A stretch of DNA of 64,000 bases. Origin: Quillaja saponaria (Eukaryota > Streptophyta > Magnoliopsida > Fabales > Quillajaceae). The notes under the pieces were generated by a model. The model did no database searches. It was not told the origin of the DNA and worked only from the letters and a program-made list of their open reading frames with translations. The stretch's first letter is position 1; every line of letters begins with the position of its first letter. Position numbers and translations under genes: made by a program. Location: contig CM055613.1 of the NCBI GenBank assembly GCA_029379385.1, forward strand, positions 19,362,001-19,426,000. Reading direction: 5' to 3'. Positions 1,876 to 54,197 of this stretch are shown here, piece by piece.

Positions 1876-2379
1876 TGTTAGTTTTAGTGACAGAACTAAC
1901 GGAAAAAATTCACAGAAATTCAAAGAAATTTAACTAAAGGCTAGAAAAGAAAAGGAAAACTAATTTATTATGCAAATTCAACTGTCCATAGAAGATTCTA
2001 GCTCAATCCTTATAGCAAATCTCTCTAACAGAATTCTCAGCCCCCTTAAATTCTCAGCAACCTACTAGTATGAGCTGACCAGGCCAGGAAGCAGTTGGAC
2101 AAGTTAAAAGACACAAACACCCTTTCCCAAATATATTAAACCTAAAACCATAAAACGTTGCATTTAAAACTAACCCATACTCACTAGACAGTAATAATAA
2201 GCTTAAGCTAAAGGCTAAAAACAACCAAAATGCCATTGTTTCATCAAAGTAGTGCATCAAAGAAGTCAGATTCACTGAAAAATTATGGAAAATTTCTTAG
2301 CTAAGTTATTAGAAAATTCTTCAAAATAAAGTCCATATTATTTAACAATGTAGGATCCAATCCCATAATAAGGATGCAA
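1876..2379 (-). repeat. Part of the Ty3/gypsy 5' LTR, interrupted by Copia
   Basis: This segment lies between the primer binding site at 1861-1872 and the target duplication of the Copia insertion at 2375-2379. On the minus strand its inner end reads CTAACA, a normal LTR terminus. The LTR should resume after the Copia element at 9433. A plausible outer end (minus-strand TGTTGTGGAGGG) lies near 9510, but the second LTR of this element is outside the window, so that end is unconfirmed. Confidence 0.55.
2375..2379. repeat. Target-site duplication of the Copia element, left copy
   Basis: The bases TGCAA directly precede the left LTR. The right copy at 9428-9432 is TGCAG, so 4 of 5 bases match and the difference is a transition. 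Confidence 0.7.
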
Positions 2380-2839
2380 TGTAATAATTATACAGGATCT
2401 AATACATGAATTCATAATACATTAACAATAAGGTTTGCATACCTAATTGAGCCATGGCACTGGATATATGGAATCTCAGCCAAGCACGCCTCAGTAAATG
2501 CTTCAAATAGCCAGGTTTTCCTTTTCGTATTCACTGTATTTTGTGGCAACTCTCAATGGGGCAATATGCATATATATAGAGAAAGATGGGACCTAGCTAT
2601 TTAATATTAGATAAAACTTTAAGAGTCCTCCTATTAAAGACTCCTAAAGTCACTCAACTACACTTACTGTCAATCCACATCTAATCAGATAAGAAGTATG
2701 CTTAAGCTCTATCTTAAATGATCACATAAACTATATAAACTTTTACCAACATGTCTCAAATGGACCAAATGTTAAGCCCGTTTTATTATTAAAACAAAAC
2801 CATATAAGTAATAGCAATCTACATATGGAATTTCTAACA
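2380..2839 (-). repeat. Copia 3' LTR
   Basis: A 460-bp repeat of 8963-9427. On the minus strand it starts TGTTAGAAATTCC and ends TATTACA. It contains a TATA-box-like run (minus-strand CTCTATATATATG) near 2565-2582 that the other LTR shares. Substitutions and small indels between the two LTRs are visible throughout, so the insertion is not recent. Confidence 0.9.
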
Positions 2840-2852
2840 TTCTCCTACTTGG
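2840..2852 (-). other. Copia polypurine tract
   Basis: The minus strand reads CCAAGTAGGAGAA directly before the TGTTAG start of the 3' LTR. This is the normal place and composition for the plus-strand primer of a Copia element. Confidence 0.75.
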
Positions 2853-3522
2853 GCAATATTAATTATAGTTTTAAAATTTTGAAAAATATAATTTTAGAAA
2901 ACAACTCTTGGACAAGGTATAACTTTTATGTGGCCACAATTTTCAAAGAAAAAATTTGGTCCTGAGATGCACTTCAAACAATCCAGCCCAATTAAGTTAT
3001 TAACATAAAAATCATGACAATTATTGTGCCACTTAAAAGATACAAGACCAATCCATGGTTACAAATGCTAACAACCTAATCTACAATGGATCTAGATGTG
3101 GTAGTGTAGCAAGAAAATATCATATAAATGTGATCAACATATGCTATTTTCATTGTCGGTACTCCAGGTGATTTCATTAAAACTGGATGCTTTCCAAAGC
3201 ACTAGAAATCACTTAAGCTTAATTTTAAGCTTGTATGTCTCAATAACCATCACGAGACATCCAATTAGTGTCATTTGAGACATACCTCCAAATTGACAAA
3301 ACTCACACTTAAGAAAGACACAAAATCTTAAGATTTTAATGCAATGACATGTCATATATAAATAACCATATGTGCATATACAATATCAATCATATCATAA
3401 TGAAAATAACTATTATTTTCATTAATTAAACGTACCATCCAACAAGGATGTAAACAAACATAAGATACCAAATAGCATATATAACATGCTAGCTAGTTTG
3501 AATAAAACAACGTAAACTCCCA

Positions 3523-4285
3523 TTAACCAAAAACATCAAAGGACTCCACAATACTCATGCTATCAACATGACTTTTGAAAACCCCAGTCCTGAGTCTTTT
3601 GGTTAAAGGATCTGCTAACATTTTTTCTATTTCAATATATTCAAACACAATATCTCCCTTTTTCACTAAATCCCTAGTAGCCAAATACTTATTATCTATA
3701 GCTTTCGATGCACTAGAGTTCTTGTTATTCTTTGAAAAGAACACAGCAGAGCTGTTGTCACAGTAAATTTAAAGAGGTCTAGAGATTGAATCAACCACAC
3801 CAAGGCAGGTTATCATGTTCTTCAACCATACACCCTATGTCGATGCTCCATAACAAGCAACGAACTCGGCCTACATAGTGGAAGAGGCAATAATTGTCTG
3901 TTTAGAACTTTTCCAAGATACAGCTCCCCCATCTAACATGAAAATATATCTTGATGTGGATTTCGGATCATTCTTGCAACCAGCAAAGTCAGAATCAGAG
4001 TAACCAATCAACTCAAGGTGATCAATCTTTCTATATACCAGCATAAAGTCCTTGGTCCTCTACAAATACCTCATAACTTTCTACGTAGCAACCTAATGTT
4101 CTGGTCCTGAGTTTGACTGATATCTACCAAGAACTCCCACTGCAAAAGCAATGTCAGGTCTAGTGCAAACTTGAGCATACAACAAGCTTCCAACTGTGCT
4201 AGCATAAGGCACATTCTTCATGAACTCCCTTTGAAAATCATTAACGAGACACTGATCAAAGTTGAATCTATCACCTTTCACAACT
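3523..4285 (-). pseudogene. Copia RNase H region
   Basis: Minus-strand pieces show the end of the Copia polyprotein. MKNVPYASTVGSLLYAQVC and TRPDIAFAVGVLGRYQSNSG (4093-4281) are the usual link between reverse transcriptase and RNase H. Then come AEFVACYGAS (near 3850) and IYCDNSSAVFFSKN (near 3735-3775). The C-terminus at 3523-3744 contains DIVFEYIEIEKMLADPLTK, typical of Copia. Several stops separate these pieces. RNase H would remove the RNA template during reverse transcription. Confidence 0.85.
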
Positions 4286-4289
4286 GATA

Positions 4290-5148
4290 CATCCTCAGGC
4301 TTACATTTCTACATATTAAACCTATCGAGCATACGATCAATGTATGCTCGCTGAGAAAGGCCCAACAAATGATAAGATTTGTCCTGATGAATTTCAATGC
4401 CAAGAACAAATGATGCCTCCCCAAGATCTTTCATGTCAAAGGTCTTAGATAGTATCAATTTTGTCTCATGTAATAAACCAACGTCACTACTGGCAAGTAA
4501 AATATCATCAACGTATAAAACCAAAATGATAAATTTACTTCCATTGACTTTGAGATATATGCACTAATCAATCTTGTTTTCAACAAAACCAAGAGAGGTG
4601 ACTACCTCATCAAACTTCAAGAATCACTGTTGAGATGCTTGTTTTAGACCATAGATACACTTCGTGAGTCTACAAACAAGTTCACTCTCTCCATTTTCTT
4701 TGAAACCTTCAGGTTGAACCATATAAACCTCTTCAACAAGATCATCATTTAAGAAGGTTGTCTTGACATCCATCTGATGTAATTCAAGATTAAAATGAGC
4801 CACCAATGCCATGATGACCCTAATAGAGTCTTTAGTTGAGACAGGAGAGAAAGGCTCACTAAAATCCACACCTTCTCTTTGAGAGAAACCTTTAGCTACA
4901 AATCTTGCTTTGAAACGCTCAATTTTTCTCTTTGAATCTTTCTTGGTCATGTAAACCCACTTGCATCCAATGGGTCTGCAACCCTCTAGAAGTGCAACTA
5001 ACTCCCATACACCATTGTGTACCATAGATTGTATCTCTTCTCTCATGGCTTCAATCCACTTGTCTGACTGTTGATTGGAGACAACTTTTCCATATGTAGT
5101 AGGATCAACAATATGACCAACATCATAATCAATTTCACCCAAACACAC
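4290..5148 (-). pseudogene. Copia reverse transcriptase region
   Basis: The best-preserved part of the element. At 4624-5148 the minus strand gives a 174-residue stretch with WIEAMREEIQSM, GCKWVYMTKKDS, ARFVAKGFSQREGVDF, ELHQMDVKTTFLNDDLVEEV and CIYGLKQASQQ, all standard Copia reverse-transcriptase blocks. The catalytic YVDDILLA block follows at 4309-4524 after a short stretch with a stop. The enzyme copies element RNA into DNA. Stops split the frame, so it is inactive in cis. Confidence 0.92.
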
Positions 5149-5169
5149 AATGAAGTCATCAGAAATAGC

Positions 5170-6330
5170 ATGCCTTCTCTACCGTTCAGACCTTTTAACA
5201 GGTATTTATGAAACTGGATTCTATTGCTGAGGAGCTTCACTAGGAACATGTGCAGTAGCATCAGTGAGAATAGGTGGTGCTACTTCAGCTTGTTCATTTA
5301 CTTCCCCCCATCACCTGTTCTCACAACAGGCATGGAAACCATTGCTTCTGACAGATCATATAATGGAATAATAACATCCTTATTTCACTTTCCTTGATCT
5401 AAAAGTGAAAACTTTTCCAAATCAGCAACATCAAATTCCAAGAACTTGGCAGTTTGTTATTCCACTATTTTGGTTCTTTGTGCGAGGCAATAGAACTAGT
5501 ATCCTTTAAAGTGATCTGGATAACCAATAAAGTAATCATAGGTAGATATAAGGTCAGTTTTCTTCTCATTTGGGTTATAGATTCTCACTTCAACTGGATA
5601 CTCCCAAGTTCAAGCTAGGCTTCCTTCCAGTTTACAACTCAAAAGGTGTTTTAGGCACCGCTTTATTGGGAACCTTATTAAGGATGTACAAGGCAGTTTT
5701 AATGGCTTATCCTCAAATATATTCAAGTAAGTTTGACCTCCTCATCATTTCCTTAAAGGTGCGATTACACCTTCGGCCACACCATTTTATTCAAGGTTAC
5801 CTGGCATGGTATATTAGGCAACAATCCGACACTCTTATAAGTACTTAGCAAATGGTCCTTATATGTTGTCCATCAACCCTAAGTTTTCCATAATACTCAC
5901 CTCCACAGTCAAATCTTACAATCTTAATGACTTTCCCTAATTGTTTTTCAACTTCAGTCATGAAAATTATAAATTTATTAAGAGAATCAGATTTTTCTTT
6001 AATCAAGTATAGAAAACCAAATCAGGAAAAGTCATCAATGAAGGTAATAAAATAACAGTTTTTACATAAAGTGTTAGAATAGGGTCCACTAATATCTATA
6101 TGAATGATCTCTAAGAGTTCTAAACTACGGGTTAACCCCTTTTTCTTTGTCTTAGTCAGTTTCCTTTTAATAGATTGACACAAGTTTCTAAGTCAAAAAA
6201 ATCAAGCGATGGTAGGATGCCATCCTTAATGAGTCTTTCAACTCTTTCCCTTGATATGTGACCCAGACACTTATGTCAAAACATTGAGGATTTCTCTTTA
6301 ATTAAAGATCTTTTGGAAATAACTTTTTCA
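5170..6330 (-). pseudogene. Copia integrase region, heavily degraded
   Basis: On the minus strand, fragments between the protease and the reverse transcriptase fit a Copia integrase: a pre-integrase segment running in from about 6330, a core fragment resembling the conserved SDCGGEYYGKL region near 5880-5915, and a proline- and serine-rich linker leading to the reverse transcriptase. Many stops and frame changes are present, so only part can be followed. The assignment rests on position between recognised domains plus these short matches. Confidence 0.65.
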
Positions 6331-6880
6331 TTATTTAAAGAGGAATTGATATTTAAGGGTGCTAAAATCATGTTGTATAAATCCATTGGACAAAACACAT
6401 TCTCCAAGAATTTCAGAATTTAAAAATAACTGAACTTTTGAATTACCAAAATAGGAATAACCAATTTTGCCTAACAAAGAAATTGAAATCAAATTCCACC
6501 TAAAAGACGATACATAAAAAGTGTTTTCCAAAACAAGTTCAAAACCACTTTCTAAAAATAAAGAGATGATTCCTACTGGACTCGACTTCAACCTCGACAT
6601 CATTCCTAACCCTAAGCTTTGTCTTTAAATCACTTGGCTTCCTTTTGTGTTTGAACCCCTGCATGGTACAAGCAACATGAACAGTTGCACCACTGTCAAG
6701 CCACCAAGAATTTAATGGACCATTAACTAAATTGGATTCAAAACAAATGAAAGCTAGTGAGTTACCTTCTTTTTATTTTTCTTTTCTAATCAGGATTTTA
6801 ATTTGAAATAGTCTGCTTTCACTTAATCTCTCTTTTTGCAAAAGAAACATGTAATGTCATTTTTAATAGCAGCCTTAAGA
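6331..6880 (-). pseudogene. Copia zinc knuckle, protease and pre-integrase region
   Basis: A decayed CCHC knuckle (CFFCKK, then a stop, then VKADYFK) lies near 6800-6850. It is followed by NSWWLDSGATVHVACTMQGF (near 6645-6710), whose DSG triplet is the aspartic-protease active site. Next comes a pre-integrase stretch at 6331-6603 (ENTFYVSSFRWNLISISLL). This order is normal for Copia. In the knuckle the expected Gly-His is replaced by Asp and a stop, so it is broken. Confidence 0.85.
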
Positions 6881-7188
6881 CCACCCACAACAAGTTTCTG
6901 ACTAGTACCATGCCCTTTCACATCCTAAGTCTTCCTATGATGAGTAGATTTAGACTTACCCTAACCACCATTGGTAGAACTAGGTTTGGAATAGGAAACA
7001 AAAAGTGCAGTTTCACTTTTTTCTTTCTTAAGCTTATCCTTTTCAGTCACACACTTAAAGATAAGGTCATTGATGGTCTAGGATTCATTTTGGGTGTTAT
7101 AGGCAATTTTATTTTAGGAGAAATCAGGTAGTAAGGAATTGAGAGAATGGTGAACCACAAAACTATTAGGGATTGAATTTCTTTGTTT

Positions 7189-7620
7189 TTAAGCTCGGTT
7201 TGTACTGTGAACCATTTTGAGAATAAATTCCTGAACCCCAGTTCCATTTTCATATCTCATACCCGCTTGATCATTTATTAGCTTTCCAGTCTCAGCATTA
7301 TCAGATACCTTGTACCTATCCCCCACAGCTTTCATGAAGTCTTTGGCACTTTGAGTTTCAGGTAACCCACTCAAAAGGTGTTCAGATATTGATCTCTTCA
7401 TGTAGATTAAACTCAACCTATTTGATCTCTCACATTTGTCAAAAGCCTCTTTTTGACCTATGGAGCTAGCATCATAAAGATCAGCAGGTTTATTACTACG
7501 TAGAGCTAAATCGATATCTATAATTCCTAGGGTGAATTCAACATCTTGCTTCCATTTCTTAAAGTTGGAACCGTTCAACAATTCAATAGTAGCAATAACA
7601 AATAATACAACATGTCAACA
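7189..7620 (-). pseudogene. Copia Gag (UBN2-type) N-terminal region
   Basis: The minus strand gives IELLNGSNFKKWKQDVEF, then DKCERSNRLSLIYMKRSI, SAKDFMKAVGDRYKVSD and GTGVQEFILKMVHSTNR, the usual Copia Gag pattern. An open stretch runs from 7581 to 7189. The true start codon is probably lost, because the in-frame sequence upstream continues as GVTATIELLNG-like codons without a clear ATG. The rest of Gag toward 6880 is fragmentary. Gag would form the virus-like particle. Confidence 0.85.
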
Positions 7621-7688
7621 ACTTGAGTAATTAAAAATCAAGATTAAAAATTTATTTTCCATGAATCCAAAGTGCATCATTACAAACT

Positions 7689-7878
7689 CCCCTTTGGGCA
7701 GAGAATGTAACATGCTATTAGGATCTCATGATTAACCCATGAAATTAAAATTAGTGCATCCTAGCTTTCGAAAAGTCTATCCCCTTTGGGCAGATAAACC
7801 TTCTAGGCTGGTATACCCCAAACCATATGTTTAATGTATTTTCCAAAATTAAAGTATAAAATAACCTCTTTTGGGCAG
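7689..7878 (-). repeat. Triplicated motif in the Copia leader
   Basis: CCCCTTTGGGCAG occurs at 7689-7701 and 7781-7793, and a slightly altered copy (CCTCTTTTGGGCAG) at 7865-7878. The spacings are 92 and 84 bp. The motif lies in the long untranslated leader between primer site and Gag, on the element's minus strand as CTGCCCAAAGGGG. Its role is unknown. Confidence 0.6.
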
Positions 7879-8948
7879 GAAACTATATATAATAATTTAA
7901 GAAACATCCCGTACTATAACTTTCAAAAATCCCACAAATCTATATAGATAAACTTATAAGATTTTCTCAAGCCGGGAAAATATAATTACTCATAATTTAT
8001 CCTTTCAAACCAAAATACATTTTAAAAGTATCTCATTGGATAATTAAACACATGTTGTAACTTTGAAAAATTGAATTGAAATAGAAGCATTCTAACCAAC
8101 ACATGTTATGAAAACATGAGAGTACGAAATTATTTAGCTCTAACTAAGGATAGTGCCTACTAATTGACAATTCCATGACATATAAATATGAAAATAAAAC
8201 AGTTCTTAACAATTATTTATGTGCAACCATATTAGTTTAAAACATAGCAAAATATCATTAACCAAACCAATAAATCATGCACATAATATCCCAAATTTAA
8301 CCATACCATAAAATTCAAAAAATTAATTTGGTAAAATTTTGGGGGAAAACGGGATGGCAGAAGTGGCGCATGTGGTACACGCTCCACCTGCCACACGTGG
8401 GATATGCCCACGTGGCTGTGTCCCTTTCTTCCTTCTCCAGCCGGGTCTTCTTGACCCAGACTGGAAGAAACAGGTCTGTTACGACCTATTTCTGAAAATT
8501 ATGTTTTTCCAGAGGCTTTTTTATGCTTTTTCTCAAATCTTTGTGTGGTTTTTGTTTTAAATTACTTTTCTAATAATAACCCTATAACAATTTCATGTTT
8601 TATCAAGATAATATTTCAATAAATTGAAATTATAGTGACATGAACCCTAACCTATGATTTAAATCGATAAAACAACATGAAACCTTAGTTTTCAAATCAA
8701 AACTTAATTTTGATTTTAAAACAACCCAAATTTTAAAATTTAGATTTCTCAACTTATAGTTGATGAAATCATACAAATAATATATCAAATTAAAGATATA
8801 AACGAGACCTTTAAAATCCCTAACAAATTGGGCTCAATTTCATTCATACATAAGTTCGATTTTGAGTTTAAAAAAATTTACTTATATGAACCCTATAATT
8901 TTATGTTAAATAAATAAATATTAGGGTTCTAAATTCATGTAGATTAGA
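7879..8948 (-). other. Remainder of the Copia leader
   Basis: No coding signal was seen. A GC-richer island at 8340-8480 contains two CCACGTGG/CACACGTGGG-type inverted sequences in otherwise AT-rich DNA. It is part of the element's untranslated leader. Confidence 0.5.
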
Positions 8949-8960
8949 CTCTGAACACCA
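8949..8960 (-). other. Copia primer binding site, decayed
   Basis: The minus strand reads TGGTGTTCAGAG two bases after the LTR end at 8963. It resembles TGGTATCAGAGC (initiator tRNA-Met) with one inserted base and one transition. The position is right, but the match is imperfect. Confidence 0.5.
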
Positions 8961-8962
8961 CA

Positions 8963-9427
8963 TGTAATAAGTATACAGGATCTCATACATGAATTCAGAA
9001 CACATTAACAATAAAGTTTGCGTACCTAATTGAGCCATAGCAGCGGATATATGGAATCTCAGCCAAGCACGTCTCAGTAAATTCTTCACACAGCCAGGTC
9101 TTCCTCTCCGTACTCTCTATATTTTGTGGCAGCTCTCAATGGGGCAAGATACATATATATATATAGAGGAGACAGGGACCTAGTTATTTAATGTCAAATA
9201 AAACTGTAAAAGTCCTCCCATTAAAAACTCTTAAAGTCACTTAACCTACACTTACTATCAATCCACATCTAATCAGATAAAAAGTGTGCTTAAACCCTAT
9301 CCCAAATGATTACATAAATTATATGAGCTTTTACCAGCATGTCTCAAATAGACCAAACCTTAAGCCCGTTTTATTATTAAAACAAAACCATACAATTAAT
9401 GGCAGCCCACATATGGAATATCTAACA
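8963..9427 (-). repeat. Copia 5' LTR
   Basis: A 465-bp partner of the LTR at 2380-2839. On the minus strand it starts TGTTAGATATTCC and ends TATTACA. A TATA-like run is conserved near 9150-9168. Confidence 0.9.
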
Positions 9428-9432
9428 TGCAG
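9428..9432. repeat. Target-site duplication of the Copia element, right copy
   Basis: TGCAG directly follows the right LTR and pairs with TGCAA at 2375-2379. Confidence 0.7.
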
Positions 9433-12230: not shown

Positions 12231-13356
12231 CATAAATTCTGTGTAAGAGAATCCAGTATTTTCTTAAGTAATTAATCTTATTCATCTAATTATTAGTGAG
12301 CTTACTTAACCAATAGATTATTGGCAGCAGCGTCATTCATTTTGGAGAACCACAATCCCCACAAAAACAGAGCCTCAGTTACTCTTCTTCGCCATTGGCA
12401 GGGTGATGATCAAGAAGTTCTTACTAGAGTTTGGTTCATTTTATATTTTATTTTATTCTTATGGAGCTGAAGGTTGGTATCAAATCATTAATTTAATCGA
12501 AATGAGATTGATGATCGGACCAAATGATGTCATAAATATACTTAATTATATTTTTTAAATACTATAAATATTATATAAAATTTTATATTAATTATAAATA
12601 TTAAATAAAAAATAAAAAAATCACATCACAAATAATTAAATATAATTATTAATAATTAATATTACAACTAATTGATTTATTTTGCATTACAAAATTTAAG
12701 TTTCAAAATATGCATCAAAATAATAAAGACAACATTAATATAAATTATAATTGCTTAGCTAATTTTTAATATAAAATACAAATATTTTATTAATCTCCAA
12801 TAGAAATAATAATATTTTTTTTAAAAATCAATTCAATCCTATCAACTAGACAATAATTCTCCCAATTCTTCTAGTTTTTATCAATTTTGACTAGTTCACC
12901 ATCAAAATTATTATTTAATTTAACTCGATCTGATTTGTCACTCGAGTAATGATCTAATCAATCTGACCAACTAGACCGGTCTAATTTTTAATACATTGGT
13001 TGGTATAATGTGCTGCTACTGATTTTGGACTGCCAAAAGTAGAAGAAAAGAAAGAATATTAAGAGGTATCTGACAAAATATCAAAATCCTTGCGTACCAG
13101 AACACAGTAAGCACCTGGTACTAGGCACAGGACAAATTTTGAAGTACCCATGCTACCCAGGTTTTGAGTAAATGAAAACTGATGACTTTAATGAAATAGA
13201 AATTAAACTTCATTATAAAAATATTTGTAGTATGTATTACATGTTTATTTATAAACTAAATAGCTTTATGTACTGTATGTCATGTATCACCACTTTTTCC
13301 TAGATGCTGGGTTCCGTAGCGGTATAGTCATAAGTGTTTATTTGAAAATTTTACTA
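12231..13356 (+). repeat. Left long terminal inverted repeat
   Basis: Reads as the reverse complement of 23303-25098. Anchors include the segment around TGGCAGGGTGATGATCAAGA (12397-12416, partner near 24935-24955), CGGACCGGTCTA-type sequence (near 12975, partner near 24335) and TTCCGTAGCGGTATAGTCAT (13311-13332, partner near 23318-23340). About 660 bp present in the right arm is absent here, at about 13090. Confidence 0.85.
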
Positions 13357-13439
13357 TAATAAGGTTGTTTTATAAAAAAAAAAAGTTAAACATCGTTCTT
13401 TCAAAAATTAAAACTGAGAATCAGGTTGTTTTAGAATGT

Positions 13440-13800
13440 GTATCTTCAAAACACAATTTTACACTCCTATGTCATCACCTCTCAGCCAGGTGGGTGCCAA
13501 GATGTCTCTGCCAGGTCAGTAGACATCCATATGAGAAGGGGCGTGTTTAGAAGTCATAGGTCTCAAACCCTAAAGCTCCAATTGCAGCTCTCTCCCTCAC
13601 CGCAAAATGCACTTCATTTTCAAATCTCAGTCATTGCAGAGCAAAGGTTGCAGAATGAAGGTTGCTGCTGCTTTCATCTTTTCCTGCTACTTTCATCTTT
13701 AATCTTGGCTCTTTCCTTTTACCTTTTTATTTTGGAGAATGAGAGAAGCATCCGTTTTCTTTCACAGCTTGCAGAAAAAAAAATAAGGTTAGTTAAGAAA
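13440..13800 (+). promoter_or_regulatory. Probable 5' leader region of the transposase gene
   Basis: Immediately inside the left inverted repeat, the composition changes to a CT-rich leader (AAACCCTAAAGCTCC, CTCTCTCCCTCACCG near 13565-13605) typical of plant 5' untranslated exons. An intron acceptor (TTTTTAATGGAACAG) occurs at 14766-14780, just before the transposase ATG. That suggests a leader exon here and an intron of about 1 kb. No TATA box could be assigned with confidence. Confidence 0.4.
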
Positions 13801-14788
13801 TACCAATAGATGGAGTTAGTGCAATTATTCCTTGACTTTGATAGTTATGATGTTTGTGTTGTTTCTTACCAGATTCTCAGTTTCTCTCATCTTTTCTCTG
13901 TAAGTGCAATTGACATACAAGGGGTTTTACTGTTCATCATACCTTTCTCTCATGGTAATTATTTGGTATTCAGCCTTGCTTGCTCTTTTATTGTAGAATA
14001 GTTGTTTATTCTTTGAGTTAAGCATATTTGGGGGTGTTTTGATTTTTGTAGGCAAATGTAAATTTATTCTTCATTGCTGTGATTGGAAAAATTCATTGCA
14101 ATGACTGGAAGAAGAATATAATAGCTGTTTGTGATCCTAAATCAAAACCTTCTCACCAAAATCATTCCCTCTGTTTTCTCTTAGCTTCCAAACCCTTTAG
14201 ATTTGTTTTTTCAGAGCATTGCACTTATGAATAGTGTCCTTTTTACGTTTATTTTTTTTTCAGTACAATGTCACATTATTACATATAAAATGTCAACTTG
14301 CAAGCTAAGAGTATAGGAGATGAGTTAACAGTGAACAATTTTCTAAGTTTTTTTTTTTTTTTTCGTTAAAGATTGGTATAAAGCTTAATTATCTTTTTTA
14401 TTGAATCAATTATAAATTTTAATTTTGAACTTGTTAAGTAAAACGAATTAATTTTTTTTTTAAACTCGACTAATAATTTTATGAATAATTTTAAACTTAA
14501 TTATCACATCATTATTTCAGCTTAGTTCCCTTGTTGCCTAGCATGACTTTTTTTCATTGGTTTCCTTTCTATTTACTAATAATATCATAATTATTATAAT
14601 TTTTCTTATAGATAGAGAAAGATTCTTTATGTTCAAATGTAAAATTAAAATTTAGAGCATTATGCATATGATTTAAATAATCTTGATGTTGATTTAACTT
14701 CTTATTATGATATGAGATTAGCTCAATAAAATAACTTTAGTTGTGTTATACTTAATTTGTTAAAGTTTTTAATGGAACAGGATATATA

Positions 14789-17337
14789 ATGGGTGATAAT
14801 CATTCTATACGAATTTTATGTTTTATGAATGGTGAAATGAAAATGGGTGAAAATGGGGTTGAATATGATGGTCCGTCCCCCTGTTAAGTTTTTGAGGGTA
14901 TAATCGGGGATTAAGTTATGAACAGTTTCATGGCCGCTTGTGTGAAGCTTTGCATGTTGATTGCACAATAGAATGCTTGGAGATTATTTGTCGATATGGA
15001 AATGTCATGCACAATACAATTCATTACTACCCAGTTCATGTAAACGATGACGAGGATTTGGAGAATATGCTACAATTTGCCCTCGAGCAAGGGGGTTCAT
15101 ATGCTATGGAGTTGTTTTAGAAAAAAAAATATCTTCTAGAAGTGCCACCGACTTTACCAACTGAATTGAACATTTCTACTTAATTAGTTAATGAGGTTAT
15201 AATAGAAGATAGGATTTTTGAGACACAATCAATAGCAATTGAAAGTCCATCTCGTCTAATGTATCAAGTGGATAGTCAACATCATCCAATTGTCAATCCT
15301 GTCTTGATTGATCTTCACTCACGAGATCCTGTAATGATGACCCTCATGCTAGTGAATATAATCATTATGTTGCTGATGATGATCTTACCATTGATCTTGA
15401 ACATGCGGATGATCCTGAATTTACTAAAGAAAATGTGTTCAATGAATATGTTTCGGATGAGTTTTTCACCGAATTTAACATTAATGGAACAATTGCGATA
15501 GATGATGATCATGTAGCAAGAATAGAGTGGCTATTGCATGAGAATTTTTACAAGGGACAACTATTTGGCACGAAAGAGGATGTGAAAAAAACAGTCAAGT
15601 ATTGGCATATTGAGAAGCATGTGTCTTTTATAGTGGTTGGATCGTGTAAGCGGATATGGAATATCAAATGCAAGCTACATGAACAAGGATGCAAATGGAG
15701 GTTGCAAGCAGTTTATTGTAAAAGGAAAGGAGAGTTCATGATAACTCAACTAACTATCTCCGCATACATGTGTTTCTTCTTGTTTGTCACAAGATCATTA
15801 TAATCTGGACACTGGTACAATTGCTGATTTTCTTAAAAATACAATTAGAGAAGAGCCTCAGACACTAGAGTAGTGTTGCGTGGTAATATGAAAGATAAAT
15901 TTGGTTATGAGGTACATATGAAGAAGATATGGGACGCAAAAAAGAAGGCCATAGAGCTAGTTTATGGTTGTTGGGAGGAATCTTACAATCAGTTGCCTAA
16001 ATTTTTAAATGCAATACGAGCTTACCAATCCGGGAACTAAATTTGAGTGGAAGGCATTCCAAACCAATAGTCCTGGTGAGGTTATCTTCCATCGAGTATT
16101 CTGGTCATTCGGTCCGTCCATTGAGGCATTCAAACATTGCAGACCCATTATTCAGATTGATAGTACTTTTCTATATGGAAAGTACAAAAGGAAATTATTG
16201 ATCGAATGTGAGGGTTGATGGCGCCAATCATGTTATGCCACTTGCATTTGCTGTTGTGAAAGAAGAGAATAAAGATAGTTGGTCATGGTTTATCTTATAC
16301 CTACGAGTGCATGTAACTTAACGAGATAATATATGCTTGATTTCTGATTATCACATTGGCATAATAGCTGTCATTAATGATCCTAGTGTTGGTTAGACAG
16401 AACCACATGCTTGTCATCGTTTCTACTTGAGACATGTAAGCGAGTAATTTTCATACAAGTAAGAAAAATATAACAGGAAAGAGAGTGGTGATGAAAACCG
16501 GTTATCAAATACAACCTCATAAGTTTGATAGGTGTATGATGGAATTGAACAACTTGAAGTCAGATTTCGTTTCATGGTTTTCAACTTGTCCAAAAGAGCA
16601 ATGGACATTGGCACATGATGGTGGAAGGAGGTTTGGGTTTATGACCACTAACTTGGCCGAATGTTTTAATAATGTATTAAAAGGAGCTCGCCAAGTTCCT
16701 ATTACTGTTATGGTACGCTTGACATTCTATTGATGTGTTAGTTATTTTGTCAAAATTTGCACAGAGACTATTGTTGTAATACAAGAAGGACACTTGTACA
16801 CTGGAAAAGTAAATAAGAGATTAGAAGAATAGAAAAAGAGGGCAATCGGTCATAATATTATATCATTTGATCCAGTTAGAGGAACATTTGAAGTTCAAAC
16901 ACAATATCGCGATTGCGAACATGGAAAAGGTGGCAATTCGCATACAGTGGAATTGGCTAATCTTGCTTATAGCTAGTCTCAAGTTTCAATATTATCAAAT
17001 AACTTGCTCCTATGTCATAGCAGGTTGTGCAAAACATCATGTTGACTACAACCAATTTGTGGGTCATTGGTATACATTGGCCCACTAGGAACTTGTGTAT
17101 AGCCCACAATTTATGCCTATAATGAAAGATGCTAATTGGCCTAAATACAACTTTCCCCATGTGCTTCTTGATATCCATCAATTGAGAATAAGAGGTAGGC
17201 CACGATCGTCACACTTGTGTAATGAGATGGACTGGATTGAGAACCTTAGAAAACTTAGATGTGGAATTTGTAGACAAGAAGGTCATAACATAAAAAGATG
17301 TCCTAATCTTGCACAAGGACAATCTTCAAATGCTTAA
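14789..17337 (+). pseudogene. MURA-like Mutator transposase, degenerate
   Basis: Starting at ATGGGTGATAATC, the pieces follow a MuDR/MURA transposase. There is an N-terminal segment at 14938-15120 (NTIHYYPVHVNDDEDLENML), then a MuDR DNA-binding region at 15540-15760 (LFGTKEDVKKTVKYW, KCKLHEQGCKWRLQAVY). The catalytic domain has a first Asp in IIQIDSTFLYGKY (codon 16159-16161), a second in LISDYHIGI (16346-16348), a CHRF motif near 16410 and a Glu in TTNLAECFNN (16659-16661). A SWIM-like zinc region (ITCSYVIAGCAKHHVDYNQF, near 16995-17060) has Tyr where His is expected. The C-terminus has a CCHC knuckle (CGICRQEGHNIKRC, about 17258-17300). At least six stops or frame changes make it inactive. 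It would cut and rejoin element ends. Confidence 0.88.
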
Positions 17338-17342
17338 TCATT

Positions 17343-17450
17343 TTGGTAATGAGATTTACTTTACATATTATATTGGTAATATTGGTAATGAGATTTACTT
17401 TACATATTATATTGGTAATATTGGTAATGAGATTTACTTTACATATTATA
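17343..17450 (+). repeat. 39-bp tandem repeat, about 2.8 copies
   Basis: Copies start at 17343, 17382 and 17421 with the core TTGGTAATGAGATTTACTTT and are nearly identical. They lie in the 175-bp gap between the transposase stop and the PMD start. Confidence 0.9.
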
Positions 17451-17511
17451 TGTATTTTGTATTCAAAATTTGTTATAAGTATTTACTAACTGTATACTTT
17501 CATATAGTTAA

Positions 17512-20100
17512 TGGATCCATCACCATCTGATCGCTTAGTGTTATATTTACATGATAATCATCGTTCTATTCACATATGGGGTTCAGAGGTATTTTATTTA
17601 TTTTTAATTTCAATAATAATCTATGGAATTTAGATTCATTGTGGTGATTTGATGAATTTTAATTTTGAGTTAGGTTTCTACTGTGTTGACATGCCGGCAT
17701 AGAGAGACGGTTTTACATCGTGGTGATTCTATCGATACACGTATCATTCCATATGTACGTGCATCAGGTTTTTGCAGAGTTTTGAGATTGGGATTCATAT
17801 AGTTAGACTGGCATCTTATTACTGCATTAGTTGAAAGATGGAGACAAGAGAGGCATACATTTCATTTCCCTCATGGCGAGTGCACAATAACATTGCAGGA
17901 TATGGCCATCTTGTTAGGCCTACCAATTGACGGTGATGTAGTGTCTAGTAACAGCTCGAATCAATCTTGGCCAAATTTTTGTGAGAGATTACTGGGAATT
18001 ATTCCACCTTCTACAGCCATTAATGGCTCTCGTCTCAGTCTTCATTAGCTCGTGACTACTTTTCAAGTGTTGCCTCATGATGCTAATGATAATACTATTC
18101 AATTTCATGCATGTGCATTTATCATGCAACTTATTAGGGGATCTTTATTTGTTGATAAATCTCAATCTCATATGCATATGATGTTTTTATCACTGCTTGA
18201 TAATTTAGATAGGTCTGGCCATTAGAGTTGGGGTAGTGCTTGTCTTGCATGCTTGTATAGAGAGTTATGTTCGTGCCTCACACTCCACATCACAACATAT
18301 TGTTGGGGCCTTGATTTTACTTCAGTTATAGGCATTGAGTAGACTCCCATTTATTGAACCTGAACGATTGCATCCTATGCACGACGATTGGGATCTCATT
18401 GATGGGGCATATGGTTCACAATTACCACGTGGGCGTGGGCCTTTGGGTATGAGGTAGTGCAGATTTTGTCATATTTAATGATTTTTTGTCTAATGAATTG
18501 CAGATGGAGAGCTCATTTTCGTGTTACTAAGGTGTGCACACATGTCATTTCTTGGTATAGATTTAAGTTAGATCAAATGTCAACATACCAGGTTAGTACT
18601 TGTTATCTATTTTTTTATTATTCATATTTCTTATTATGATATTATGTATCTAAATATTTATATTTACATGGTTGTAGATTATTTGGATGTCATACAATGC
18701 TGAGTTGATAGCAGATCTTCCTGATTATTGTTTAGTTGGTCGTAGTATATAGGCTGCAGTAGTTCTATTGATATGCTTTCACATAATGGAGTGGCATAGG
18801 CCTAATAGAGTATTATGGCAATTTGGAATACATCAAAATATACCACTTAATGTTGAAAGTGATATTCAGTTGCATGGAATTGATCTAAGAGGTAGAGGAA
18901 ATGCCGATTGGATTATCAAACGTAGACAATTTGTCAACATATGGGATAGAAGAGAGGAGCATGTTATGCCTGGAGATCTATTTGATGGGGAATTAGATTC
19001 AATATCATCGTATATGTAGTGGTATAGTCAAATAAGTAGGAGATATTTAACTCGAAGATGCACTTTACATACAACTTTGGTAAGTAACAAATTTAATTGT
19101 TAAGTGTGGTAATCGATAATATGTTACTAATCAAGTTGTTAGTTAAACTGATATTGATAAATTTTTTTATATCACAGACTGCAGGTATACGAAGCAGGTA
19201 TACGAAGATGTCAGACATTGTCTGGAACATGTGCAGATCTATCTATTTTTCCAACTATTCATGCCACAAGCACATCTTTATTGCAGATTATTGACCAATA
19301 TGGATGTTTGGCACCTTCAAACCCTTCAGCAGCTCATGTACCATCAGCTAGTACTTCCCAAGTTCGAGTAGATGCTACAACTAGGACTTCACTAGTTGAC
19401 TTAGATGTTGAAGTTGGGCTCTCAACTCCTATTTCATGTGGTGATATACACATTCACACTACGACTTCTAGTTATGCACATTCCATGCCTACTACTTCAA
19501 GTTCAAGACCACTTATTTATGCTCCTCATACGTTAGGTCTTGCAACAACCAGTACTTCACATGTTGACTTAGATGCTGGGGTTGGACGCCCATCTCCTAC
19601 TTCATGTAATGCAATGCACCTTCCCACTACGAATTCTATTCATGTGCAATCCATACCCATTACTTCAGGCTTAGAACTATCTATTTATGCTACTCATATG
19701 TCAAGTGTTGCGACAGTCTAGGTGTTGCCGACCATAATAGATCTATATGTCTCACCTATCCCACGTACAACTTTATTTCGATTGAACTAATACACCACCT
19801 TCATTTGCAGCTAATATTCTTCCTAATGAAGTTGACATAGGTGGTAAGAATATCACACAAATTAAGACTATTACACATATTGATTCTGAATCACTTCTCC
19901 ATGTTCATGATGTTGAGGAGAGCGAAGATGATAGTGGAGGCCGTGTTGATGATGGTACAGAGTATGATGAGGATAACACTCAGCATCGTGAGAGTGTATC
20001 ACATGTTGCACAAGTTCAGAGGGGTGGACGATGGGATAATCTTCCACGTAGGAAAAATCTAACACGAAAGAGGAAAGCATGGACTTGTGGTACACACTAG
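17512..20100 (+). pseudogene. Plant mobile domain (PMD) protein, MAIN-like, with introns
   Basis: The start ATGGATCCATCACC gives MDPSPSDRLVLYLHDNHRSI, then an intron near 17589-17670. The PMD core follows: RASGFCRVLRLGFI, stop, LDWHLITALVERWRQE, TFHFPHGECTITLQDMAILL and GLPIDGDVV (17760-17945). Further pieces are WRAHFRVTKVCTHVISWYRF (18500), IIWMSYNAELIADLPDYCLV, ICFHIMEWHRPNRVLWQFGI and LHGIDLRGRGNADWIIKRRQ (18680-18935). A Ser/Thr-rich tail (19218-19721) and a basic C-terminus ending RKRKAWTCGTH (stop 20098-20100) complete the family layout. PMD proteins (annotated as protein phosphatase 7 long-form homologs, or MAIN/MAIL) act in silencing and meristem maintenance, and many copies are carried by transposons. 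Internal stops and frameshifts make this copy a pseudogene. Confidence 0.88.
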
Positions 20101-21380
20101 AGGATTGTTACTTATGGTTTTGTATAAATGAGTTATGAAACTCTTTGTTTGGATAAATTCATCAGTATGTATGTGATATGTGTGATGTTGGTACTCATTG
20201 AGTTATATTATAATATATGTTTGTCATTATAGGGAGGAAATGTTAAAAAACAAGGGAAACTCTGTCCGATTTTTTATTAATTAAAATGACAATTGAAATT
20301 CATATAAAATAACTTGGATCGGTAATGATAATTGAATATTTGACAATTTTATAATTTAATATGACAATAAGAAAATCTTAAAAAATAGGAGAGTTTCAAC
20401 TTTAAAGAACATGTTGAAATTACTTAATGTTCACAATAACAAAAAATATTTGCTTATATAAAGGGTTTGAAATCATAAGAGTTAATAACATCAAACAACC
20501 ATTTGTTATGAAAAATTCATTTCCGTTAACTCAATAAAATGCCGAGACAATATATTTTTCATTATTACAAGTATAGTGACAAGTTTTTAATAACAAATTT
20601 TAATATCAATAATATGTATTGTTTATTTAAAAAATGACATATTGATTTACGTGACTAAGTTTATTATAATACAAAATTTTCATCCTAGTAACGACATAAT
20701 GCTCAAGACAAAACGTTAATGCTAAGACAAAAAAGTACTACTCTGACATGTTATGGGAAAATCATGCATTACTTTCAACTAGTAGGAAAGGAGGAGGGTG
20801 GTGAAACTATAAAAATAAAGACATTTCTATTGAGAATCTCATTCTTGTCTCTTACTCCATTCACTATCTTAATCATTGTTCTCTTTTTGAAACCTCTTCA
20901 ATTTTTGATGGACGTAGACGTCAACAGGATCATGAAACCATAGGGCTTAAAGACATAAGAAAAATTGGATTTTGGTTTATTGTGACATGGTCTTATTTAT
21001 GTTAATGTATTTAGAAAGTTGCCGGATTACTTTATGTTAATATATTTTAGTTTTGACTCTTATGTCTATTTAGCATTTTGTGATACTATATCATTCTGGC
21101 TCTTATGAGTTTCATTGCATGTGCATATTAGTTGGCTATTTAGTTATAAGCTTTAATATTTTAAAGTTATATATTCATATAAGATACATAGGAATAATGA
21201 ATTCTTATGGCTTAAAATCTTTATTTATATAGGTTATAAGTTGTAATACTTAAATTTTTATGCAGCAGATTATTCAGTTTTGAATTACTTTTAAAGTCCT
21301 ATAACAATGTTTGAGAAACACTAAATTTGAATTTTTAGGTTCTTTTAATATTTTAATTCACTCAAAATTTTCAAAAAAAA
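20101..21380. other. AT-rich interior of the Mutator-like element
   Basis: No domain or RNA gene was recognised between the PMD stop and the palindromic cluster. The short frame at 20719-20943 has no family features. Confidence 0.5.
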
Positions 21381-21394
21381 AAAAAATTATGGTT

Positions 21395-21800
21395 GAATTT
21401 GGGTTTTCAACCCACAAATTTGAATTTCTATGTTTAACCCACAAGTTTTAAATTTAGTGGGTTCAACCCACAAATTTTGTAAAAATATCTTTTAAATTTG
21501 TGTGTGTAACCTACGAGTTTCAATTTGTGAGTTCAACCCACAAATGTTGTCAAACCCACTAGTTTTAAATTTGTGGGTTCAACCCACAAATTGTTCTCAA
21601 AAATATCTTTTAAATTTGTGTGTAACCTATGAGTTTCAATTTATAAGTTCAACCCCAAATTTTGTTTGTCAAAAATATATTCTCCGTAAAGCTGACATGG
21701 CAAATAAATTTGTGGGTTCAACCCACAAATTTTGTCAAAAATATATTCTCTCTCTGCATAGGTGGAGCTGACATGACAAGTAAATTTGTGTGTTGAGGAC
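21395..21800. repeat. Cluster of palindromic repeats
   Basis: The half-site AAATTTGTGGGTT meets its own reverse complement across a central C, so each unit is a near-perfect palindrome. Clear full units are centred near 21580 and 21719, with decayed or half units near 21405, 21445, 21465, 21535 and 21640. Copies are linked by a second repeated element (AAAAATATCTTTTAAATTTG, AAAAATATATTCTC). The palindromes could form hairpins in single-stranded DNA or RNA. Confidence 0.8.
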
Positions 21801-21896
21801 ACAAATTCATTAAAAATAAAATTTAGTATTTATTTTTCAAGGAGCTACGTTTAACTCTTTTAATTTTGAAAGAACCTTATTCTAGTGAATTTCTTT

Positions 21897-21994
21897 GTTT
21901 ATTTAGTCATGTAAACACACATGTGCAAGATTAGGACAATTGAGTATAATAATTATTATAGTTTTCATTAACATAAGAAGATGGGAATGAAAAA
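21897..21994 (+). repeat. Inner inverted repeat, left arm
   Basis: TTTAGTCATGTAAACACAC through AAGATGGGAATGAAA is repeated in reverse complement at 23205-23308. The two arms enclose the minus-strand TAD3 fragment. Confidence 0.85.
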
Positions 21995-22531
21995 GCTAAC
22001 ATTTTATCCTAATAACAACACCATATTGTCAACCAAAGAATGAGTTAATAAAGAAGTTTACCAGATTGAAGTATATTTCATATCCAGTACATAAATAAGG
22101 ACGAGTTAACACCATATGAAATATCTTATTATCAGCACTCTCATCATTGTCAAACTGAAAATAGAATAATTAGTTTTGCTGAAATATATCATCCAGCACC
22201 AAGAACCTGCGGAGAAGAAAACTTCAAGCACTATGTTCAAGTTAGACTTCATTATACACGTGACACATTTTATTTGTCTTTCCCATACTCTATCTAGTAA
22301 GATTCTTGGTAAGCTCTGGAGTTCTGTATAATTCCAACAAGTACCGAAAAGATAGTGCAAGGGTGCAAAGTTAAATATACGACTTCTTCCTTGACACTTT
22401 CTCAATGAATTTGAAACTCATCAGAGAAAGGATGTCCGGTTGATTGTTCAGTTCGGGTGATAAAAGAGTTGACCAAAAGACAAGTTACATGAAAACAACT
22501 AAAAAGGACATGTCCAAAACGTGAGCTACCC

Positions 22532-22999
22532 TTAAAGTATTTTAAAACTACTATTCATCACAGGTACTAAATCATACAGTTGGCTATCTACAGATTTATT
22601 CCCAATGTTTCCCAGATCTAGGAAAAGGCGTCTATCCCTGGCAGCAGAAGATTCAATGGCCACAATGGTAGCATGTCGTAAAGGGTGCCAATAGCATGAA
22701 CTCTGCGAATATAGTTGTTTCTCAGTCCACCGCCAAGGATATAAACAAGATACACCAGCATATGGTTCCCTGAGCTCATTAGACAAACCATTTGAAAGCA
22801 CTGTTTCATGGGCTGCTACTCTATAGGAAACGCTATCAGAACTAATGGCTTCTGGTTTCAAAAAGCAGCTGTAGTATATGCTTGTTTTGTCTTTCCAAGC
22901 ACAAATCTGATCACATGCACTTGCAATTACCTGCTTAACTGAAGGATCCACTATTACTGCAGCATAGAAGATCAGAGAAAGCAGGTTAGAGGGGACCAA
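22532..22999 (-). pseudogene. Captured fragment of TAD3 (tRNA adenosine deaminase subunit), central part
   Basis: The minus strand encodes AAVIVDPSVKQVIASACDQI, SCFLKPEAISSDS, then YWHPLRHATIVAIESSAARD. These are characteristic of plant TAD3 (ADAT3-like), the subunit that pairs with TAD2 to convert adenosine 34 to inosine in tRNA anticodons. HPLRHA (about 22671-22689) is the zinc-ligand segment. The frame ends in a divergent tail (VMNSSFKIL) with a stop, probably read-through into an intron. Only one internal exon is present, and the N-terminus and the conserved PCxxC exon start are missing here. The C-terminal exon lies on the opposite strand at 23873. Confidence 0.82.
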
Positions 23000-23204
23000 T
23001 CATTACTAATGGTAGAAAACATCACAATACTGTGTTTTCACCTTCTCTCAAACATTGAAGTTCTGTTATGAATTTAAAAAAATATCAAAGTTTCACTAGC
23101 CCAATGTTGCCTCCAGCTTCGTCTAAGGCATGTCAACACTATAAGAGGATACAAGCTATTTCTTGCAAGAAGCACGAATAATCTATCACTCTGCAAAGGT
23201 ACAT

Positions 23205-23308
23205 TTTCATTCCCATCTTCTTATGTTAATGAAAACTATAATGATTATTATAATTCAACTTTCTCAATTGTCCGTAATCTTGCGCATCTGTGTTTACATG
23301 ACTAAATA
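23205..23308 (-). repeat. Inner inverted repeat, right arm
   Basis: Reverse complement of 21897-21994 with a few differences. It abuts the inner end of the right long inverted repeat. Confidence 0.85.
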
Positions 23309-25098
23309 AACACTTATGACGATACCGCTACGGAACCCAACATCTAGGAAAAAGTAGGGATACATGACATACAGTACATAAAACTATTTAGTTAATAAAT
23401 AAACATGTAATACAGACTACAAATATTTTTATAATGAAGTTTAATTTCCATTTCATTAAAGCCATCATTTTTCAGCTACTCAAAACCTGGGCAGCACGGG
23501 TGCTTCAAAATTTGTCCTATGCCAGTACCACGTGCTTACTGGTATGCCTCGGTACACCTGAAGTACCAATTTTTAATTTAGGATAATGTAATGTAATGGT
23601 TTGTGACCATGTAGTGACGAACTGCCATACTCATACAGTAGTTTCTTAGAAATTGGCCAATGGCCATATTCATATCGTATTGTACGCACCAAAGTACCGG
23701 TATCGGTTCTTCCCTGCTCAAAATTATAAATGCTTCAATTCATTTCTTGGATGTATGTTTCTCCTTTCAAGATAAAACTGTTAAACACGTTTCCTTCCTT
23801 GTGGTTTATATATATATATACACACATATATATATATATATATATAAATGCTGATCTTTATTTTTGATCTAAGGTGTGCTATGGCACTTGTGCATCAGAG
23901 AATCAGGCGCATATTTTATGCTTTTCCAAACCCTAATGCTGGTGCAATGGGAAGTGTTAATAGGTTGTAGGGAGAGAAGAGCTTAAATCATCATTATGCT
24001 ATTTTTAGGATCGTGATGCCTGAAGAAGTCCTTCATAGATGTAAAACTGACGTTGCAGAAACTGCTTAGGAATCGCAATTGCTCACAGCAAGTAGGCACG
24101 AAGTGATCAAATGCTTGCAAAAATATGATTGTTTTATTTTGGTTGGGGCTTATTTATTAATGGAAATCTAGTTAGTAAGACTCTTTTTGGTGGCAAGTGT
24201 CAAGATTTGCTGTGGTATTTTATACAAGGATTTTGATATTGTCAGATACCTCTTAATATTCTTACTTTTCTCCTAATTTTGGCAGCCAAAAACAGTAGCA
24301 GCACCTTATTCCAACCAATGTATTAAAAATCGGACCGGTCTAGTCAATCAAATTGGTTATATCGTTACTCGGGTGACAAATCAAATCAAGTTAAATTAAA
24401 TAATAGTTTTGATGGTTGAATTGATCAAAATCCATAAAAACCAGAAGAACTAGTAGAACTATTGTCTAGTTGATAAGATCAAATTGATTTTTATTTTTTT
24501 TTTAATTTTATTATTTGTATTGAAGATTAATAAAATATTTGTATTTTATATTAAAAATTAGTTAAATAATCATATTTTATATTAATTTTGTCTTTATTAT
24601 TTTGATGCACATTTTGAAACTTAAATTTTGTGATGCAAAATAAATCAATTAGTTGTAATATTAACTATTAATAATTATATTTAACTATTTGTGATGTGAT
24701 TTTTTTATTTTTTAATGAATATTAAATTTTTATTTTTTATTTTTTATTTAATATTTATAATTAATAAGAAAAATTTATGTAATATTTATAGTATTTAAAA
24801 AATATAATTAAGTATATTTATGACATTATTTAGTCTGATCATCATTCATTTCTATTAAATTAATGATTTGATACCAACCTCCAGCCCCATAAGAATAAAA
24901 TAAAATACAAAATGAACCAAACTCTAGTAAGAACTTCTTGATCATCACCCTGCCAATGGTGAAGAAGAGTAACTGAGGCTCTGCTTTAGGGGGAATGACG
25001 CTGCTGCCAATAATCTATTGGTTAAGTAAGCTCACTAATAATTAGATGAATAAGATTAATTAATTAAGAAAATACTGGATTCTCTTACTCAGAATTTA
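23303..25098 (-). repeat. Right long terminal inverted repeat
   Basis: Partner of 12231-13356. The alignment is continuous at 23303-23563 and 24222-25098. The 660 bp in between are present only in this arm and include the TAD3 C-terminal exon. The outer end meets a small dispersed repeat that starts at about 25092. Confidence 0.85.
23873..24070 (+). pseudogene. Captured C-terminal exon of TAD3
   Basis: After an intron-acceptor-like TCTAAG, the plus strand reads CAMALVHQRIRRIFYAFPNP, NAGAMGSVNRL, stop, GEKSLNHHYAIFRIVMPEEV and then a stop. This is the C-terminal end of plant TAD3. The leading Cys is the second cysteine of the deaminase PCxxC zinc motif. One internal stop (TAG after NRL) breaks it. 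It lies inside the part of the right inverted repeat that the left arm lacks. Confidence 0.88.
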
Positions 25099-41938: not shown

Positions 41939-42097
41939 CCTCATGTATGTAGGATTTCACCCAGCTAATCCAAGACTCTTTCCACTCTTTACCAATATCT
42001 AGCAGAACTGCTTTCAGAGGAACCAACAGTTCATCTTCCAAAATGCTAGTGTTAGCTTTAATATTGGACAGCAGTCGAAAGAAATTCATGTAATCAA

Positions 42098-42722
42098 CTT
42101 TAGACGGTCAGACAATTCCTACCAAAGATGTGTTTGAGTATTTAGGGTCATTTATACAAAAAGATGGTACAATTGAGCATGATGTAAACCATAGGATTAA
42201 GGCAAGGTGGGTGAAGTGGCAGAGTGCTTCGGGAGTTTTATGTGATCCTAAAATCCTGAATAGATTGAAAGGAAAATTTTGTAAGTCGACAGTGAAACTA
42301 ACTATGCTGTATGGTACCGAATGTTGGGCAGTTAAGAAGCAACATTCGCATAAGATGGGAGTAGCCGAAATGAGAATGTTGAGATGGATGACAGGACATA
42401 CAAGAAAGAATAGAATAAGGAATGATGAGATTCGTAAGAAGGTGGAAGTAGCACCTATTGAGGAGAAAATGAGGGAGAATCGTCTACATTGGTTTGGACA
42501 CATCCAACGTCGACCAATGGATGCAGTAGTTAAGCAATGCCAGGTGTTAGATGGGGAAAGGGGAGACTGAAACTTACATGGAGGGCAGTCATCGAGAAAA
42601 ATATGGCTATGCTAGGAATTAATGAAAATCTTGTCTTGGATCGATGCAAATGGAGGAAAAAGATTCATATAGCCGACCCCAACTAGTTTGGAATTTTAAG
42701 ACTTAGTTGAGTTGAGTATTGC
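42098..42722 (+). mobile_element. 5'-truncated RTE-type LINE inside a SELO exon
   Basis: The plus strand encodes the C-terminal part of an RTE-clade reverse transcriptase: DGQTIPTKDVFEYLGSFIQK, KLTMLYGTECWAVKKQHSHK, MGVAEMRMLRWMTGHTRKNR, APIEEKMRENRLHWFGHIQR. The frame breaks near 42568. The 3' end is the typical CCGACCCCAACTAGTTTGG tail followed by TTGAG repeats (42672-42722). It is flanked by SELO coding sequence on both sides. The missing 5' part is normal for LINE insertion. It is inactive. Confidence 0.92.
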
Positions 42723-53411: not shown

Positions 53412-54173
53412 CATTTTATTATATTCCTTTGGTGTTTATTATTGTTAAAACCATGTTTATACTAAGTAGTATGGAATAGTTTCCTTTCTAGAATTGCAAC
53501 TAGAACTCAATATATAGCTTGATATTATATTATGTAAGAATTGCGTAGGTTTTAGCATATGATTTATTTAGTTCATTTTATGCTTAATGCTTCTAATTGA
53601 TTGGATATCTCTTAGATTGAATTAGGAAATCTAAAGAAACTTGAGAAAGGGAATTTAGGTTTAGCCTTGAATGAATTAATCACTTGTTTGAATTCAACTC
53701 ATGTTGTTGATCTTGATTTGTGTATAGGATAGAAATATACCTATTTGTCTTGTGTAGCCAAATTAAGTCCAATCTTAGTGACTTGTTTAATTTAATTCAC
53801 ATAGAAATATAGTGAATTGATTAAGTGAGATACATTTATAAAGTATAGGAATATGCTTATAATTGATTAAGAACCCTAGGCTAATAATTATTTGTCATAA
53901 CTAAGCAAGACAAGATAATAATAATTCAAGTGAAGTGTTGAGGGAGAAAAGTTATAGTTCTAGGTTTAGCTCCAGTTTATCCTTGTGTTAAAATTTTTTT
54001 AGGTTTATAATTAGTTCATAATCTACCTAAATTTCAATTGTTTAGGATAAAATTGGAATTGTTAATTTTAATACTTAGCAAAATATTTGAGAACTCCTTG
54101 TGGGAACGATCTCTACTTATTACTGTATTACTCGAGGACGATACGTGAGCTTACATAGATAAAATCCATGTCA
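53412..54173 (+). repeat. Athila-like element B, 5' LTR (3' half only)
   Basis: Aligns with about 55370-56125 of the complete LTR. Shared markers are AACTCAATATATAGCTTGAT-like sequence, TGTCTTGTGTAGCCAAATTA and GATCTCTACTTATTACT. It ends AAATCCATGTCA. The first half is missing at a junction with element A. Confidence 0.88.
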
Positions 54174-54179
54174 AGTTTT

Positions 54180-54197
54180 TGATGCCATTGTCGAAGA
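54180..54197 (+). other. Primer binding site of element B
   Basis: TGATGCCATTGTCGAAGA aligns with the TGGCGCCGTTGCCGGGGA site (tRNA-Asp type) used by Athila/Tat elements. All six differences are G-to-A or C-to-T. Confidence 0.75.

Follow-up and report, generated by a model that had tools for sequence, protein, structure and literature searches.

The analysed window, a 64-kb stretch of the Quillaja saponaria genome (contig CM055613.1), contains a decayed Mutator-like element (MULE) of 12.9 kb at 12233-25098. Its inverted repeats enclose a pseudogene of a MURA-type transposase and, downstream on the same strand, a pseudogene of a plant mobile domain (PMD) protein. The best reading, to which a probability of about 0.6 is given, is a two-gene transposon in which the transposase was accompanied by a VANC-like anti-silencing partner, the copy found here being dead. 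An earlier note, made from the sequence alone, had proposed a Mutator-like element with transposase and PMD gene between inverted repeats. Repeat alignments, Pfam and tblastn all recovered it, and the element ends given in that note were correct within 2 bp, as the arms start at 12233 and end at 25098.

The terminal inverted repeats are about 1.1 kb per arm and were located by ungapped and gapped repeat alignments. The left one is situated at 12233-13343 (+) and the right one, which is split, at 23304-25098 (-). In the chain of ungapped arm pairs, the outermost pair (12233/25098) matches at 98% over 106 nt and the innermost (13343/23304) at 93% over 220 nt. The gapped alignment gave 917 bp at 85% (E=0) and an inner 239 bp at 92% (E=5e-99), which are the long terminal inverted repeats expected of TIR-MULEs. 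The control for these repeats was weak: 50 stretches of 1200 bp from random places of the window were shuffled and only the presence of a match was recorded, and 6 of the 50 matched the right repeat at E<=1e-3. The right repeat is interrupted by about 665 bp (23542-24206), while the left repeat has no such stretch.

The MURA pseudogene occupies 14789-17337 (+) and, by Pfam and tblastn, is composed of a PB1-like N-terminus, a MuDR DNA-binding domain, a DDE core and a zinc knuckle. Pfam placed the MuDR domain (PF03108) on 15312-15803 with an E of 4.6e-6, above the cut-off, and the D, D and E motif letters are present in the aligned pieces, so the gene belongs to the MURA-type DDE transposases with MuDR DNA-binding domain. 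A PB1 fold was predicted at the MURA N-terminus in the model of a relative. The intact Quillaja MURA protein P0156 (752 aa) aligned piecewise in tblastn, its residue 1 being placed at 14789 and its residue 752 at 17334, and the stop codon TAA follows at 17335-17337. As P0156 matches to its last residue and the window copy shares its zinc knuckle and final residues, the end seen here is the true end of MURA and the PMD gene is a separate open reading frame (ORF). In the MURA tree, from which P0093 and P0034 were left out for short cover, P0156 was nearest to the window copy (support 96), followed by P0157 and two proteins with both MURA and PMD, P0211 and P0220 (support 100). A scan of viral contigs with the MURA alignment gave 106 stretches fitting the pattern, none of which encodes a relative.

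The PMD gene begins with an ATG at 17511, 173 bp past the MURA stop (175 bp in the earlier note), and a repeat search found a 39-bp tandem repeat of 2.8 exact copies (17343-17451) in the spacer. The PMD pseudogene (17511-20100, +) consists of about five exon pieces at 17511-19079 followed by a low-complexity tail, whose structure up to about 20100 is less sure. Pfam detected the PMD (PF10536) on 17803-18048 (2.8e-23) and 18753-19019 (9e-12), and the tblastn queries P0058 and P0069 cover 17511-19055. Transposase and PMD are thus present in one element, within the same inverted repeats and 173 bp apart, and not as a fusion protein: MURA terminates independently in a stop codon and the PMD starts from a separate ATG. 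Such a fusion may itself be an artefact of gene models. Both genes are broken, as the earlier note had stated. MURA carries at least five in-frame stops and several frame changes and the PMD domain pieces carry six stops and one frame change, giving at least 11 in-frame stops together; these counts are minima, the aligned pieces having been picked by hand. At six of the 11 stops, W or Q is found in two or more of three relatives, and at eight if a single relative suffices, which fits, without proving, the decay of methylated cytosines.

PMD trees were built with 98 and with 48 of 164 PMD proteins plus the window, as hand-picked representatives; they are unrooted and include Arabidopsis MAIL3 but no certain MAIL2, MAIN or Gypsy rows. 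In them the window PMD clustered with the Quillaja proteins P0069, P0118 and P0211 (support 99 in the larger tree and 100/99 in the smaller). When a place in clade C, near the MAIL genes, was looked for, its nearest neighbours were these Quillaja PMDs (100/99). Judged by the MURA and PMD trees, the nearest relatives found for the element are in the eudicot Quillaja.

To place the pair among plant proteins, 5.8 billion proteins were searched with a PMD segment taken from a MURA+PMD protein, with a PMD alone and with a MURA alone, and 270 proteins were fetched from the listed matches, with the best 120 of 195 taken for the PMD-alone search. Of the 164 fetched proteins with a PMD, 30 contain MURA beyond residue 200 as well, and these 30 come from Vitis, Senna, Heliosperma, Quillaja, Cucumis, Cuscuta, Hibiscus and Lolium. 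MURA precedes the PMD in 28 of the 30, P0051 and P0052 showing the reversed order. In Vitis P0038 the PMD starts at most about 20 residues past the end of the MURA zinc knuckle, and some of the "fusion" proteins look, from their sequences, like two ORFs merged by gene prediction or splicing; in P0211 and P0220 much of each domain is missing. Mean identities of MURA were correlated with those of PMD across 11 families (r=0.63, a value attained in 4 of 20000 permutations), and without three long-branched families r was 0.51 (146 of 20000). The pair therefore looks like an old unit whose members diverged together. The presence of pairs in these genera, the predominant order and the co-divergence support the conserved two-gene unit suggested by the earlier note; its description of the PMD gene as cargo is too weak for a long-standing partner. 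The extension of the MULE-PMD association to several eudicots is, on these comparisons, new here. Many of the plant proteins (P0058-P0155 and others) are named "serine/threonine-protein phosphatase 7 long form homolog"; they have a PMD and no phosphatase domain is listed for them, so the name looks misleading.

The predicted PMD fold resembles VANC21: among solved structures, this was the only clear match for a PMD model, and by this model the domain would have the VANC fold. By sequence the PMD proteins fall outside the DUF1985 family, which was matched by 6 of 35 of them with a best E of 0.0014, below the curated cut-off where shown. The idea of the earlier note that the PMD helped the element against silencing has become likelier through this predicted fold match; the effect itself we infer as the most likely function from the fold, the pairing and published VANC work. 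The element would once have been an autonomous, long-repeat MULE encoding two proteins. MURA would bind the inverted repeats and move the element, while the PMD protein would most likely act like VANC in VANDAL elements through sequence-specific DNA binding. Bound to arrays of repeats in noncoding parts of the element, it would have kept host silencing away. The copy in the window is dead and had also acquired a piece of the host gene TAD3.

Several searches gave negative results. The PMD profile searched against PDB sequences gave two chance matches with VANC21 absent, so that no sequence similarity between PMD and VANC21 was detectable there. The repeat ends showed no match for a target-site duplication of 8-10 bp (9 bp in the earlier note); the sole duplication-like pairs were two of 8 bp with one mismatch each, away from the repeat ends and due to chance, and the copy is old and decayed besides. 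A tblastn search with ten MURA and PMD queries found no further copy within the window.

The alternative that survives best, although unlikely, is that the PMD protein was an accessory transposition factor aiding MURA in DNA binding, targeting or assembly, with no relation to silencing. MURB and VANB are models for such a factor. Stable pairing and co-divergence would suit any partner of a transposase, and the predicted DNA-binding fold is equally compatible with it. However, the PMD-like fold is known in solved form from a protein that counteracts silencing, and silencing is also what host PMD proteins act on (PMC5418596).

A piece of a host gene was indeed captured by the element, which suits the notion that its PMD was passive cargo as well, taken from a host gene in the manner of Pack-MULEs. 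Within the additional segment of the right repeat lies the C-terminal exon of TAD3/ADAT3 (23875-24066, +), identified by PDB-chain matches. Its 64 residues matched a chain of a trypanosome complex, "Deaminase, putative", at E=4e-12 and ADAT3 chains at 6e-10; TadA-type enzymes did no better than 1e-3, and yeast TAD3 gave E=0.53. On these matches it is a fragment of the host tRNA-deaminase gene TAD3, absent from the earlier note, and because of it the element is also a gene-capturing MULE. Ikeda 2017 (PMC5418596) also interprets MULE PMDs as captured host genes. Against passive carriage, the PMD co-diverges with MURA in conserved order in several plant families, and TAD3 is represented by a fragment whereas the PMD is a whole domain. 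This origin of the PMD gene is accordingly considered improbable.

The relation of element PMDs to host genes was analyzed in the same trees, the groups for the approximately unbiased (AU) test being defined after viewing the first tree. A single clade of MULE PMDs, as envisaged by the earlier note for transposon copies, was rejected (p-AU 7e-5), MAIL3-type genes being interspersed with them. A single clade of the MAIL3 rows was not rejected (p 0.49), and the MAIL3-type genes form one clade with two MULE-PMD families (100/99). Standalone MAIL3-type genes start with PB1, which is the N-terminal domain of the MURA transposase and was found at the N-terminus of 52 of the 136 fetched MURA-type proteins, 37 of the 52 having no PMD. 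Because they are headed by the transposase's own PB1, MAIL3-type genes resemble MULE-PMD elements that hosts have domesticated. Further proteins with PB1 and PMD (Malania, Euphorbia, Senna P0088, Coffea P0040, and P0002) are placed elsewhere in the trees, so the transposase core was perhaps lost several times, or gene models produced the effect; splice variants joining the PB1 exon to the PMD were also considered as a source. The PB1 alignment is short, and its unrooted tree has 58 rows, with stretches below 70 profile positions left out and MUSTANG-B unsampled. An acidic cluster was tried as a marker of PB1 type and dropped: a crude pattern found it in 29 of the 58 stretches, and no claim on PB1 type is made. 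In the available texts, the plant mobile domain and PB1 were mentioned together only where the PB1 passage concerns MUSTANG-B. A 2021 review describes PB1 as usually not associated with transposable elements (PMC8616336), in contrast to the window element and the 52 of 136 MURA-type proteins.

The opposite direction, in which a MAIL3-like host gene with PB1 and PMD donated the PMD to MULEs more than once, is also improbable. Repeated capture could explain the rejection of a single MULE-PMD clade as well, and the trees are unrooted. It is opposed by the transposase's own PB1 N-terminus on the host gene, by the many MURA-type proteins that carry PB1 and no PMD, and by the co-divergence of MURA and PMD. 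Chance nesting or misassembly of a PMD and a MURA from two elements is very improbable, for despite the missing target duplication and second copy in the window, both genes share with high support the same nearest relative genus, where MURA+PMD proteins exist.

Association of PMD-C with MULE transposases has been described in grasses and Amborella, together with two captures of host genes (Ikeda 2017, PMC5418596), and the PMD on a rice MULE was first noted by Babu 2006, as cited there. Ikeda 2017 also reports that host PMD proteins silence transposons and offers, as speculation, that the transposon copies counter silencing. The window element shares with these the presence of a MULE transposase with a PMD, but those are described as fusion proteins, whereas here two ORFs with their own ends lie in a long-repeat element, and pairs with co-divergence occur in several eudicots. 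With VANDAL21/Hiun and its VANC21 (Hosaka 2017, PMC5735166; PMC10398659) it shares a transposase with a second protein and noncoding repeat arrays. It differs from VANDAL21 in the repeat motif, apart from the lack of sequence similarity in the PDB profile search. VANDALs are also not known to have long inverted repeats, unlike the window element. Pack-MULEs resemble it in the host gene fragment (TAD3) between inverted repeats, but the window element also has its own transposase. Pack-MULEs are usually non-autonomous. The host proteins MAIL3, MAIN and MAIL1 (PMD-C) belong to the same PMD family, and MAIL3-type genes share the PB1 N-terminus with MURA; they have no transposase core, and in Arabidopsis MAIL3 carries a phosphatase domain but lacks PB1. 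MUSTANG-B genes (Joly-Lopez 2012, PMC3435246) similarly have PB1 in a 5' exon ahead of a MULE transposase but, compared by their description, keep the transposase and have no PMD.

Nicolau 2020 (PMC7156037) was restricted to eudicots because PMD-C is mainly genic in them, and found that MAIL3 is patchy and that it is less constrained outside Brassicaceae; MULE-PMD elements in eudicots could account for this behaviour. PMD proteins were called enigmatic, with a domain of unknown function, in the 2021 review (PMC8616336). The VANC21-like predicted fold leads to a concrete hypothesis for MAIN, MAIL1 and MULE PMDs alike, namely that they bind DNA at arrays of noncoding repeats. The PB1 heading MAIL3-type genes hints at the direction of PMD gene transfer between transposons and their hosts. 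For this branch it disagrees with the published view that MULEs captured host PMD genes. In the available texts PMD and VANC21 are at most juxtaposed as two strategies (including PMC8616336 and PMC5418596); VANC and plant mobile domain were not found together as whole words, a match that forms such as VANC21 escape. A wider scheme is possible but doubtful: PMD and VANC would both have branched from a single ancient fold with which transposons counter silencing, and which MULE-PMD elements paired with a PB1-bearing transposase. Hosts would then have taken it over, MAIL3-type genes being MULE-PMD elements minus the transposase core, with PB1 and PMD left, and arisen more than once. If so, PB1 on transposase and host protein could let both touch directly, a tool for escaping silencing would have become a host tool recognizing transposons, and MAIN and MAIL1 would be sequence-specific DNA-binding proteins.

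Within the element, a motif count showed an array of AACCCAC/GTGGGTT palindromes at 21409-21726, with 10 of the 15 in the window, which is a candidate protein-binding array. The VANC21-like motif AGTATTA was rejected as the element's site, its 22 occurrences in the window showing no enrichment within the element. An inner inverted repeat pair (21896-21993 with 23204-23312) flanks an antisense ORF from the ORF list (22532-22999, -). We take this ORF to be a putative more upstream portion of the TAD3 gene, a reading not borne out by databases, in which it gave a RAG2-like Pfam match below threshold and a single PDB match due to chance.

A scan of the window found no tRNAs and no Rfam matches. 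Outside the element, a broken P450 gene (26560-28190, +), presumably CYP76, is situated 1.5 kb away. Direct repeats at 2379-2840 and 8962-9428 (88%) flank an ORF (4624-5178, -) assumed to encode a Ty1-copia-like reverse transcriptase, and 2379-9428 is probably a long terminal repeat element. Another ORF (42094-42570, +) seems to us to resemble the end of a non-LTR (long terminal repeat) retrotransposon reverse transcriptase. A second set of nested long inverted repeats spans 50282-61114, with arms of about 51256-52784 and 59570-61114 (82-94%) and with 50282-50799 paired to 53414-53945 and 55363-55891, and is perhaps another long-repeat or foldback element.

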